The notes under the pieces: generated by a model | Told to the model about the DNA's origin: nothing | Seen by the model: the letters and a program-made list of their open reading frames with translations, nothing else | The model's database searches: none | From: a virus | Reading direction: 5' to 3' (one strand) | Virus record (IMG/VR): IMGVR_UViG_3300032050_000120 | Coordinates: 1-64,000 of that record | Length of the DNA stretch: 64,000 nt | Program-made: the position numbers and the translations under genes | Shown: positions 59,550-61,750 of the stretch, one piece after another | Layout of the letters: each line of letters begins with the position of its first letter | Numbering within the stretch: the stretch's first letter is position 1

Positions 59550-59625
59550 TGGTACGGGTGGTGGGACTCGAACCCACAAAACTCAGATTTTAAGTCTGAT
59601 ACGTATACCATTCCATCACACCCGT
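59550..59625 (-). tRNA. tRNA-Leu (TAA), short variable loop
   Basis: Acceptor ACGGGTG/CACCCGT, anticodon arm TCAGA-CTTAAAA-TCTGA, T-arm GTGGG-TTCGAGT-CCCAC, CCA encoded. The D-arm (TGATGGAATGGTA) is Leu-like, but the variable region is only 5 nt (GTTTT), unusual for tRNA-Leu. Confidence 0.85.
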
Positions 59626-59628
59626 ATT

Positions 59629-59703
59629 TGGTACGCAATGAGGGGTTCGAACCCCCGACCTTCGCCGTGTAAAGGCACTGCTCTACCGCTGAGCTAATCG
59701 CGC
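59629..59703 (-). tRNA. tRNA-Val (TAC)
   Basis: Acceptor GCGCGAT/ATTGCGT (two G-U pairs), anticodon loop TTTACAC, T-loop TTCGAAC, encoded CCA. Confidence 0.9.
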
Positions 59704-59710
59704 ATGTTTC

Positions 59711-59800
59711 TGGTGGTTCTCACAGGACTTGAACCTGTATAACCCTCTAATCTGGAGTGCGAGGTATAAGCTCGGTGCATTACCATTATGCTAGAGAACC
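59711..59800 (-). tRNA. tRNA with long variable region, anticodon read as TAT
   Basis: 90 nt. Acceptor GGTTCTC/GAGAACC, D-stem GCAT/ATGC, anticodon stem CGAG-CTTATAC-CTCG, T-arm ACAGG-TTCAAGT-CCTGT, encoded CCA. A 20-nt variable region (ACTCC...GTTAT) gives a class II layout, incompatible with a normal Ile tRNA. Anticodon identity is therefore uncertain. Confidence 0.7.
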
Positions 59801-59911
59801 AAATTGCTTATCCTGTTATCAAAAACATACTAAGTCAATATGCTTTTGATAGCCCTCTACTGGAGAGGACGACCACTTCCGTTGAGAAACCCACTCGGAA
59901 GAACAGTTGGA

Positions 59912-59950
59912 TCAAGCAGCAAGTGCCTGAATGTAGTTATCGTCATTTGC
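59912..59950 (-). other. tmRNA tag-peptide reading frame (ANDDNYIQALAA, stop TGA)
   Basis: GCA resume codon at 59950, then AND-DN-Y-IQ-ALAA and TGA (59914-59912). E. coli tag is ANDENYALAA; the start AND and end LAA (ClpXP/ClpAP degron) are retained, and two extra residues (IQ) are inserted. No ATG is needed, as in all tmRNAs. Confidence 0.95.
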
Positions 59951-60036
59951 GATTACTTTGGTTTGCGCTGATTGAGTCAGTCGCCTCACTGGTTGTCCAG
60001 TCGGATATCTTTCCCTGTCGAATCTGAAACTGCCCC

Positions 60037-60066
60037 ATCAAAAATATTTTACTCAGAAAACATTTT
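60037..60066 (-). other. intervening segment of pre-tmRNA
   Basis: 30 nt between CCA and the 5' G; AAAATGTTTT/AAAATATTTT arms form a hairpin continuing the acceptor stem. In permuted tmRNAs the segment is removed by RNA processing to give two pieces. Confidence 0.85.
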
Positions 60067-60134
60067 TGGTGGAGCAGACGGGATTTGCACCCGTGTCCAA
60101 GAAACCTTCTCGTTCCTTCATACAACCATATAAA

Positions 60135-60142
60135 CTATTTAG
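60135..60142 (-). promoter_or_regulatory. late-promoter-like CTAAATAG before the tmRNA
   Basis: AAACTAAATAGTTT (palindromic) lies just upstream of the acceptor piece. Its core equals the putative late-promoter motif seen before virion genes. Confidence 0.4.
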
Positions 60143-60151
60143 TTTAAGTAT

Positions 60152-60227
60152 TGGTGCGCCCACTAGGATTCGAACCTAGAACCAAAGGATTATGAGTCCT
60201 CTGCTCTAACCGTTGAGCTATAGGCAC
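60152..60227 (-). tRNA. tRNA with CAT anticodon, probably Ile2 (lysidine type)
   Basis: Acceptor GTGCCTA/TGGGCGC, anticodon loop CTCATAA. The anticodon region GCAGAGGACTCATAATCCTT with TTGG parallels bacterial tRNA-Ile2, so Ile(AUA) is more likely than elongator Met. Encoded CCA. Confidence 0.85.
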
Positions 60228-60353
60228 TTATTTCGCGTAGTCGAGATCGTGAAGGTCACTTGTGGCTTCAACGATCTCTTGAATAAGTTCCTTGTCGGTC
60301 TTTTCAGTTTCTTCACCTGGTGGTGTTACTTCAGTTAATACTTGCTTTTCCAT
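60228..60353 (-). CDS. small acidic protein in the tRNA cluster, 41 aa
   Basis: MEKQVLTEVTPPGEETEKTD... ending HDLDYAK, with ribosome site AAGAGGTATACA. Stop TAA is directly before the tRNA-CAT. It is one of the few translated frames between tRNAs; acidic helix, unknown role. Confidence 0.65.
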   Translation of the reverse strand: MEKQVLTEVTPPGEETEKTDKELIQEIVEATSDLHDLDYAK

Positions 60354-60367
60354 TGTATACCTCTTAT

Positions 60368-60459
60368 TGGCGGAAGTGGTAGGATTTGAACCCACGGATC
60401 CTTCTCAGGATCGTCTGATTTCAAGTCAGGTGCATTAAACCAAGCTCTGCCACACTTCC
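60368..60459 (-). tRNA. tRNA-Ser (TGA)
   Basis: Class II: acceptor GGAAGTG/CACTTCC, anticodon stem CTGA-CTTGAAA-TCAG, long variable arm GATCC...GGATC, encoded CCA. Confidence 0.93.
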
Positions 60460-60553
60460 TTAAATTGCGCGCCCTCGGTTAATTCCAAGTCCTCGTTCAC
60501 CTGTTCAATTAGGGCTACTTGGGTACATGTGCTTTAGGCACATCCACGCATTT
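60460..60553 (-). other. structured spacer between tRNA-Ala and tRNA-Ser
   Basis: 94 nt without a tRNA fold but with two hairpins: ATGTGC-CTAAA-GCACAT and CTTGG-AATTAA-CCGAG. No convincing start codon with ribosome site. Confidence 0.4.
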
Positions 60554-60629
60554 TGGTGGATCCAGTCGGACTCGAACCGACCACATCCAGCTTGCAAAGC
60601 TGGCGCTCTCCCAGATGAGCTATGGACCC
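60554..60629 (-). tRNA. tRNA-Ala (TGC)
   Basis: Acceptor GGGTCCA/TGGATCC (one G-U pair), anticodon arm CCAGC-TTTGCAA-GCTGG, T-arm GTCGG-TTCGAGT-CCGAC, encoded CCA. Confidence 0.95.
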
Positions 60630-60635
60630 GTAAAT

Positions 60636-60712
60636 TGGTCGGAGTACAAGGATTCGAACCTTGGACCTCTTGCTCCCAAAGCAAGCGCACTACCAAGCTG
60701 TGCTATACTCCG
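60636..60712 (-). tRNA. tRNA-Pro (TGG)
   Basis: Acceptor CGGAGTA/TACTCCG, anticodon arm CTTGC-TTTGGGA-GCAAG, T-loop TTCGAAT, encoded CCA. Confidence 0.95.
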
Positions 60713-60720
60713 ATATAATT

Positions 60721-60797
60721 TGGCGCACTCGGTAGGAGTCGAACCCACAACCAACGGAGTAGAAGTCCGTTGCTCTATCCAGTTGAGCTACGAGCGC
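60721..60797 (-). tRNA. tRNA-Arg (TCT)
   Basis: Acceptor GCGCTCG/CGAGTGC, anticodon arm ACGGA-CTTCTAC-TCCGT, encoded CCA. Confidence 0.93.
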
Positions 60798-60834
60798 ATA
60801 ACTTATTATATCATAAAACTTATTGTTAATCAAA

Positions 60835-60922
60835 TGGTACGCCTGGTCGGAGTCGAACCGACAGTGCCCTTTCGGACGCTGGAACCTAAATCCAGAGAGT
60901 CTCCCAATTCCTCTACAGGCGC
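60835..60922 (-). tRNA. tRNA-Leu (TAG)
   Basis: Class II: acceptor GCGCCTG/CAGGCGT (one G-U pair), anticodon CTGGA-TTTAGGT-TCCAG, variable arm CGTCCGAAAGGGCACT, encoded CCA. Confidence 0.93.
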
Positions 60923-60925
60923 GTA

Positions 60926-61561
60926 CTATTTTTTTAATAACTTAACATGAACACCAGAAGCTGCGATACCAGTTAACTTTTTAACCTCAACCTGGTGTCC
61001 GTTTCTTTTCGCATAGTCATGAACATAGTCTTTCAGTTCATCACCATCAAACCCTTTTTGGTAGGATCTTTCAGAACCTTTCTTAACCCACATCGCTTTC
61101 TTTTCTTCAGCGGGTTCAGAATTCTTGTTCTTCTCGATATCACCTTTCCACTTTCGTGTGCCGATAATAGCGTGTCCACCTTCCTTAATGGAGTTGAATA
61201 TGGAGTGCATTACATGCTCTCTAACATTTGGTTCTACAACATTCAACACATTATGGCAAACTGCTGCATCATAACCATTCTTTGGTATCTTAGATGCGTT
61301 TGTATACTCTGGTGCTTCTTTACGTCCTTCTGGGTTTGGTTCGTGGTCATGAACAACATAACCTTTACCCAGACCTTTCATCAATGCTTTCTTTGTGTGA
61401 TCTAAACCAGCACCGATGCTAATAATCTTAGACTTCGGTTCAAGCTTATCACTCAAATATACACCAGTCTTCTCGTAGGTTCCACCAGTGGTGGCTACCT
61501 GGGTTTTCCTGGTGTTGTTAAGTTTTGTTTCTTCATTAATAAATTGACTAAAGGATAACAT
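60926..61561 (-). CDS. putative head-cargo SAM-dependent methyltransferase, 211 aa
   Basis: Start MLSFSQFINEETK (I-N-E|E) at 61561, capsid-targeting-like. The Rossmann core follows: KIISIGAGLDHTKKAL (SAM-binding GxGxD-type loop), YVVHDHEPNPE, YDAAVCHNVLNVVEPN and GGHAIIGTRKW. Target unknown (DNA, RNA or protein). Inserted between tRNA-Leu and tRNA-Gly; a longer frame upstream would run through tRNA genes. Confidence 0.75.
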   Translation of the reverse strand: MLSFSQFINEETKLNNTRKTQVATTGGTYEKTGVYLSDKLEPKSKIISIGAGLDHTKKALMKGLGKGYVVHDHEPNPEGRKEAPEYTNASKIPKNGYDAAVCHNVLNVVEPNVREHVMHSIFNSIKEGGHAIIGTRKWKGDIEKNKNSEPAEEKKAMWVKKGSERSYQKGFDGDELKDYVHDYAKRNGHQVEVKKLTGIAASGVHVKLLKK

Positions 61562-61597
61562 AATAATTCCTAATATTGTCAAGTATTTATGTTCGTT

Positions 61598-61671
61598 TGG
61601 AGCGTCCAGTGGGAGTCGAACCCACGACCTGAACTTGGAAGGATCACATTTTACCGTTAAACTATGGACGC
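61598..61671 (-). tRNA. tRNA-Gly (TCC)
   Basis: Acceptor GCGTCCA/TGGACGC, anticodon loop CTTCCAA with one T-T mismatch in the stem, T-arm GTGGG-TTCGACT-CCCAC, encoded CCA. Confidence 0.9.
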
Positions 61672-61674
61672 ATT

Positions 61675-61750
61675 TGGTGCTGTCTGTGGGAATCGAACTC
61701 ACGACATCCTGCTTACAAGGCAGGTGCTCTACCGACTGAGCTAAGACAGC
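61675..61750 (-). tRNA. tRNA-Thr (TGT)
   Basis: Acceptor GCTGTCT/AGACAGC, anticodon arm CCTGC-CTTGTAA-GCAGG, encoded CCA. Confidence 0.95.

Follow-up and report, generated by a model that had tools for sequence, protein, structure and literature searches.

The window analysed here (a 64 000-nucleotide stretch from a 64450-base IMG/VR virus record that is linear and possibly a fragment) carries a gene for a permuted (two-piece) tmRNA on the minus strand at approximately positions 59817–60151, within a cluster of tRNA genes. Its assignment as a phage-borne permuted tmRNA gene is supported by covariance-model matches, gene prediction and folding, and the gene probably makes a working two-piece tmRNA, for which a probability of about 0.8 is estimated. 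As judged from sequence comparison, its distinctive point is the combination of a betaproteobacterial-type body with an A18–G55 elbow contact, and the paired change of this internal contact suggests that the gene is still in use.

The covariance search proposed by the first-pass annotation was run over the whole window using Rfam and gave two matches above the cut-offs: RF04321 (permuted tmRNA; 59912–60127, 125.9 bits against a cut-off of 47, E = 3.2e-24) and RF01850 (betaproteobacterial tmRNA; 59847–60161, 98.4 bits against a cut-off of 84, E = 1.1e-28). The models used carry no pseudoknots. RF01850 is the best of its clan for the window, as given in a table that omits lower-scoring clan members and so contains no alphaproteobacterial or cyanobacterial scores. 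ARAGORN called a permuted tmRNA at 59821–60159 with the tag ANDDNYIQALAA. The only families above their cut-offs in the window scan were tRNA and tmRNA; a match to RF04354 (37.8 bits, cut-off 65.7) overlies a tRNA on the opposite strand and was treated as a chance match. On the minus strand, one tRNA gene ends at 60152 and the next starts at 59800. The 5′ start of the precursor may directly adjoin the upstream tRNA (60151) and the 3′ end may be the hairpin at 59851–59817, so that the extent of 59817–60127 originally proposed is nearly right, except that the precursor may begin at 60151 rather than 60127.

The arrangement of the parts (Table 1) bears out what the first-pass annotation had described. 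The acceptor/T-arm half with its CCA (60069–60067) precedes the 5′ half, which begins with GGGGCAG (60036–60030); the two are joined by a 7 bp acceptor stem, GGGGCAG/CTGCTCC, and separated by a 30-nucleotide linker (60066–60037) that forms a hairpin in the fold, and a full tag frame with a stop codon follows (59950–59912). The ACCA end is encoded (60070–60067, minus strand). The third acceptor pair is G–U, and G3–U70 is the mark recognized by alanyl-tRNA synthetase (PMC3968760). Counting G–U as standard, all seven acceptor pairs are standard, as are 12 of 12 when the 5 bp T stem is included.

Table 1. Features of the permuted tmRNA locus (window coordinates).
Feature	Positions	Strand	Evidence
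Permuted tmRNA gene (likely precursor, spanning the upstream-tRNA end to the 3′ hairpin)	59817–60151	−	RF04321, RF01850, ARAGORN, fold; ends predicted
Acceptor piece, 3′ part: TT, GGAC, T arm (60094–60078), acceptor 3′ strand (60077–60071), discriminator A and CCA (60070–60067)	60067–60100	−	Sequence, pairing
T loop TGCAAAT, with G55 at 60088	60083–60089	−	Sequence, elbow parsing
Linker, 30 nt, expected to be excised	60037–60066	−	Fold; removal by analogy with known two-piece tmRNAs
Acceptor 5′ strand GGGGCAG, pairing with CTGCTCC, third pair G–U	60030–60036	−	Pairing
D-loop core AGATTCGAC, A18 = 60025, G19 = 60024; GATTCGAC at 60024–60017	60017–60025	−	Sequence, elbow parsing
Tag reading frame GCA...TGA, ANDDNYIQALAA, 12 residues	59912–59950	−	ARAGORN
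3′ portion of the mRNA piece, folded into two stem-loops	59852–59911	−	Fold
Terminal hairpin TATCAAAAGCATA / TATGTTTTTGATA	59817–59851	−	Fold; similar letters in L032, L058 and L135
Cluster of 11 tRNA genes enclosing the tmRNA gene	59550–61750	−	ARAGORN

The strand 59817–60151 folds better than 100 of 100 shuffled sequences (z = −5.46). The minimum-energy fold of the precursor contains the acceptor stem and a 12 bp hairpin built from the linker together with the final two CCA bases; the T arm is absent from this structure, and the centroid structure has three of its five pairs. Helix P2 contains non-standard pairs in the model alignments (four of 15 with RF04321 and four of 20 with RF01850). 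In the structured 3′ part, one pair of the second stem differs on both sides between the viral loci L032 and L058, as identified by eye.

The tag frame called by ARAGORN follows a resume codon and has a hydrophobic end, with ANDDNYIQALAA followed by TGA and the tag ending in ALAA. Among the viral permuted loci (221 permuted calls for 245 loci), 97 of the 106 distinct ARAGORN tags end in AA. Very long tag calls (22 residues or more) occur in some viral permuted tmRNAs (L025, L133, L020 and others; for example AEDADTFEFGALSFTGNTVGGEVAVAA). The call GKADEWIFMGSVGG, which has no AA end, is common to the viral loci L008, L202, L245 and L261 and may represent either a wrong frame or a true loss of the degradation end.

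In the tRNA elbow, contacts are made between U55 (T loop) and G18 (D loop) and between C56 and G19 (PMC7912444), and the contact between the D loop and the T loop is reported to be needed for SmpB binding (PMC3968760). The window has A18–G55 together with G19 and C56, which is one of two matched states: in the permuted tmRNAs examined the 18–55 pair is either G18–U55 or A18–G55, with both positions changing together. Pattern scans of IMG/VR returned at least 120 contigs for each matched state, and two such scans returned 0 contigs for each mixed state; the patterns fix GGAC, C56, TCCACCA, GGGG, the final G of the acceptor strand, a four-base spacer, G19 and TTCGAC and see only such forms. A permuted-order pattern left free at positions 18 and 55 matched at least 120 IMG/VR stretches, and the loci that it yielded (at least 120) form a viral sample unselected for state. 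Of 120 loci in this sample, 116 could be parsed, giving 86 A18–G55 (33 distinct), 30 G18–U55 (16 distinct) and no mixed pairs; the four unparsed loci are G18–U55 by eye. The total for all viral loci (241 of 245 parsed; 120 G18–U55 and 121 A18–G55) includes loci that are matched by construction, and the unbiased evidence is that of the state-unselected sample and the two empty mixed-state scans. The Caulobacter T loop has been described as carrying a G at the U342 position, in a section that does not mention any accompanying D-loop change (PMC1168896). A literature search that covered subscription papers poorly found no report of 18–55 covariation in tmRNA.

The cellular loci show the same two states. 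The sample is non-random, consisting of the best 30 matches of a phylum search, the best 30 of an order search and 40 further rows picked by hand from the phylum search, and 89 of 107 loci could be parsed: 67 A18–G55, 21 G18–U55 and one C18–U55, the last (L193) being a below-cut-off match that was dropped. The unparsed loci comprise weak matches (L180–L192, L194 and L195, with L180–L182 just over the cut-off) and three strong ones (L307, L308 and L311; 96.7–120.8 bits). The 21 G18–U55 loci, among which L136 and L137 repeat L124 and L123, are the named betaproteobacterial loci and loci from the order of Herbaspirillum, in which 17 of 300 genomes exceed the permuted cut-off, three of them barely (48.7–53 bits). 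All A18–G55 loci but one derive from the broader phylum sample, the exception being L176 from the order search; judged by where permuted genes are known to occur, the other 66 would be alphaproteobacterial. L176 lies near a contig end in a genome from the Herbaspirillum order and is perhaps a stray contig; it was kept in the counts. G18–U55 is thus a regularity of the beta side in this analysis (it is not a published criterion), being present in the 21 parsed beta-side cellular loci and absent from L176 and from the window.

The window is exceptional among its own relatives in this respect, being the sole A18–G55 sequence among the 53 members of a clade with a support of 0.937; this clade was used because a clade of 60 that also contains the window has a support of 0.0. 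The clade of 53 belongs to a tree of 256 sequences from which the elbow, T-arm and acceptor letters had been removed; there the window groups with L032 (support 0.878), and this pair has a support of 0.981 in a second tree that retains these letters. One other viral A18–G55 sequence falls inside a wider clade of 62 in the tree that keeps the elbow letters. The RNA is short, and the supports are moderate, with some weak inner nodes (0.51 and 0.0). On the rough tree of 256 sequences, parsimony requires approximately 11 changes of elbow state, compared with a mean of 75.7 for shuffled labels, and the switch in the window is therefore not the only one.

Comparison of the window with L032 shows that, among the 12 pairs of the acceptor and T stems, five have changed on both sides and none is broken; the elbow has also changed on both sides (A–G versus G–U). 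These both-sided changes with no broken pair argue for selection on a working tmRNA, as paired changes are expected under a selected RNA fold and not under decay, and the tmRNA fold appears to be under selection. It is possible, if doubtful, that the A18–G55 elbow was instead acquired by recombination with an alphaproteobacterial-type tmRNA, a question that concerns the history of the elbow and not the function of the gene. From the T arm to the CCA, the window matches seven phages of Brevundimonas, an alphaproteobacterium, with 93.8% identity over 32 bases. However, by eye the Brevundimonas phage has a different D-loop half, and the changed tracts flank a linker that remains similar to that of L032, which disfavours a single exchange since the linker would have been replaced too. 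Stepwise paired change seems likelier than recombination.

Two-piece tmRNAs of phages have already been published, as in Methylophilales phage Melnitz (PMC9004378), and the 2025 tmRNA database of 97,179 sequences, which introduced RF04321, contains 79 bacteriophage sequences (PMC11915505). The first-pass annotation left undecided whether this exact case had been described; the kind is indeed published (PMC9004378), and the phage of the window was not met in the phage collection searched, from which very near records may be omitted. Melnitz is a myophage that, like the window, carries a permuted tmRNA gene, but its gene is reported to be closer to alphaproteobacterial ones and to be accompanied by a glutamine riboswitch (PMC9004378), whereas that of the window is of betaproteobacterial type and lies in a tRNA cluster, with only tRNA and tmRNA families over the cut-off. 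The betaproteobacterial two-piece tmRNA (RF01850; Azoarcus and Herbaspirillum loci L123–L129) shares its gene order, P2 region and AGGCGAC segment with the window but has G18–U55 in place of A18–G55, and the aligned identity of the window to the best cellular sequence is approximately 52%. Conversely, the alphaproteobacterial two-piece tmRNA (e.g. that of Caulobacter) shares with the window a G in the T loop (PMC1168896) and, in the presumed alphaproteobacterial loci, A18–G55; it differs in that the best clan model for the window is the betaproteobacterial one and that the tree places the window with betaproteobacterial sequences. Xanthomonas phage Rb1 (PQ569993; L358) also contains a permuted tmRNA (RF04321, 103.4 bits) that is unannotated in its record and has a P2 region similar by eye to that of the window; it differs in having G18–U55, a 107-nucleotide linker and the tag call ANDDNFRPALRLAA. 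Since gammaproteobacteria such as Xanthomonas have a one-piece tmRNA, this case hints that phages do not simply copy the tmRNA form of their host. Two of the Herbaspirillum loci (L123 and L129) are permuted tmRNAs with the tag call ANEPQFVAYGT, and L123 has a tRNA-Lys gene and a phage integrase gene approximately 2 kb away; the same genome contains a second, weak match.

Ten window proteins scanned against PHROGs gave matches that include a DNA polymerase, a DnaB-like helicase, NrdA, NrdB and a tail fibre, and Pfam matches for ten others include UvsX/RecA, a T4-type clamp loader and T4 RNase H. The polymerase has matches in 2592 records, all with less than 60% identity, the best being cyanophages (cyanomyoviruses) at approximately 48%. 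These phage-type proteins and the distance of the polymerase matches indicate that the carrier is a T4-like phage with no close named relative in the phage collection searched. A search of that collection with the tRNA region matched 1576 records, none of which covers 80% of it (very near records may be omitted); the best 40 of the 1576 match through tRNA stretches. The tmRNA gene alone matched eight records. Promoter-like sites were not above the level in shuffled sequences (three found, compared with a mean of 6.7). Within the cluster, ARAGORN called a tRNA-Met(CAT) at 60152–60227 (minus strand), adjoining the tmRNA gene, which from comparison with Escherichia coli we take to resemble the tRNA-Ile whose CAU anticodon is modified so as to decode AUA, and a tRNA-Ile(TAT) at 59711–59800 (minus strand), which at 90 nucleotides is long for that tRNA; two AUA readers within one cluster would be odd. 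A 41-residue peptide frame lies between two of the tRNA genes (60228–60353, minus strand).

A pattern for beta-like permuted genes found 11 stretches in IMG/VR, including those of contigs L002 and L003, and seven loci in named cellular genomes (Herbaspirillum and Azoarcus). The tmRNA gene is letter-identical in the window, L002 and L003, and window proteins lying within the L002 and L003 stretches are 100% identical, with the same flanking genes. The nearest distinct relatives (L032, L058, L132 and L135) share the P2 strand, the pre-tag segment and the 3′ part, and their tmRNA genes are also housed in tRNA clusters; the aligned identity of L032 to the window tmRNA is 82%, excluding the linker. 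The phage carrying L135 (an 84 kb record) has matches for 13 of 80 window reading frames, of which one overlies tRNA genes, one is a tail-fibre stretch (65 residues, 74%) and the other 11 have 27.5–66.2% identity, suggesting that it is only a distant relative of the window phage. In both phages, two of the matching proteins (66 and 61% identity) are encoded close to the tmRNA gene. The presence of the gene in a comparable tRNA cluster of a distantly related phage argues against a very recent capture, and the tmRNA gene would thus be a long-standing resident of this phage line unless it moved along with its neighbours. The two origins suggested at the outset, acquisition from a host and parallel evolution, are thereby narrowed to a betaproteobacterial-type body that was not captured very recently.

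In a working tmRNA of this type, the precursor would be transcribed together with the phage tRNA cluster and cut by host tRNA-processing enzymes, with excision of the linker as in known two-piece tmRNAs. This would yield two pieces, the acceptor piece with its terminal CCA and a second, mRNA-like one, which the acceptor stem and helix P2 would hold together. Alanine would be attached to the acceptor piece by the alanyl-tRNA synthetase of the host, and host SmpB would bind the elbow. Ribosomes stalled on broken mRNAs could then be rescued during infection, to the benefit of the phage, with the tag ANDDNYIQALAA added to the stalled product leading to its degradation. A search for SmpB, which recovers the protein in ten of 14 control genomes, found no match in the record of the window or in 11 related records, all of which are possibly fragments, suggesting that the tmRNA presumably uses host SmpB.

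The missing SmpB match would also suit an RNA that binds host SmpB or ribosomes as a decoy and damps or redirects host trans-translation instead of rescuing ribosomes for the phage. The tmRNA of mycobacteriophage DS6A consists of little beyond a tRNA-like domain, and inhibition of tmRNA has been reported for a similar molecule (PMC4131195, PMC11915505). This function is nevertheless distinctly improbable for the window gene, which retains a full tag frame with its ALAA end; a pure decoy would not need the AA ends that predominate among the distinct viral tags. That the gene is a decaying passenger without function is very improbable: it scores below the relatives L032, L058, L130 and L025 on both RF04321 and RF01850, four helix-P2 pairs are non-standard and the elbow is unlike that of the rest of the clade, but the acceptor and T-stem changes relative to L032, L058 and L130 all preserve pairing, the elbow is in a matched state while mixed states are absent from the scans, and the identical gene recurs on three contigs. 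Misassembly or host DNA in the contig, which might be suspected of a linear and possibly fragmentary record, is hardly credible given the phage genes on the same contig and the two other IMG/VR contigs with the gene and the same flanking genes.

The preferred reading, a working two-piece tmRNA, extends the known two-piece tmRNAs of phages by a betaproteobacterial-type case from a T4-like phage, and the paired switch of its elbow provides a natural test of the contacts that tmRNA needs. A speculative and rather unlikely extension is that the 18–55 contact acts as a lock with host SmpB or alanyl-tRNA synthetase (A18–G55 in alphaproteobacterial hosts and G18–U55 in betaproteobacterial and gammaproteobacterial hosts), in which case the betaproteobacterial-type tmRNA of the window, with its elbow and stems re-tuned to an alphaproteobacterial host, would record a jump between host classes, and the tmRNAs of phages would be readable as host markers. 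If the elbow state does follow the host, a phage tmRNA could help to tell the hosts of uncultivated phages.
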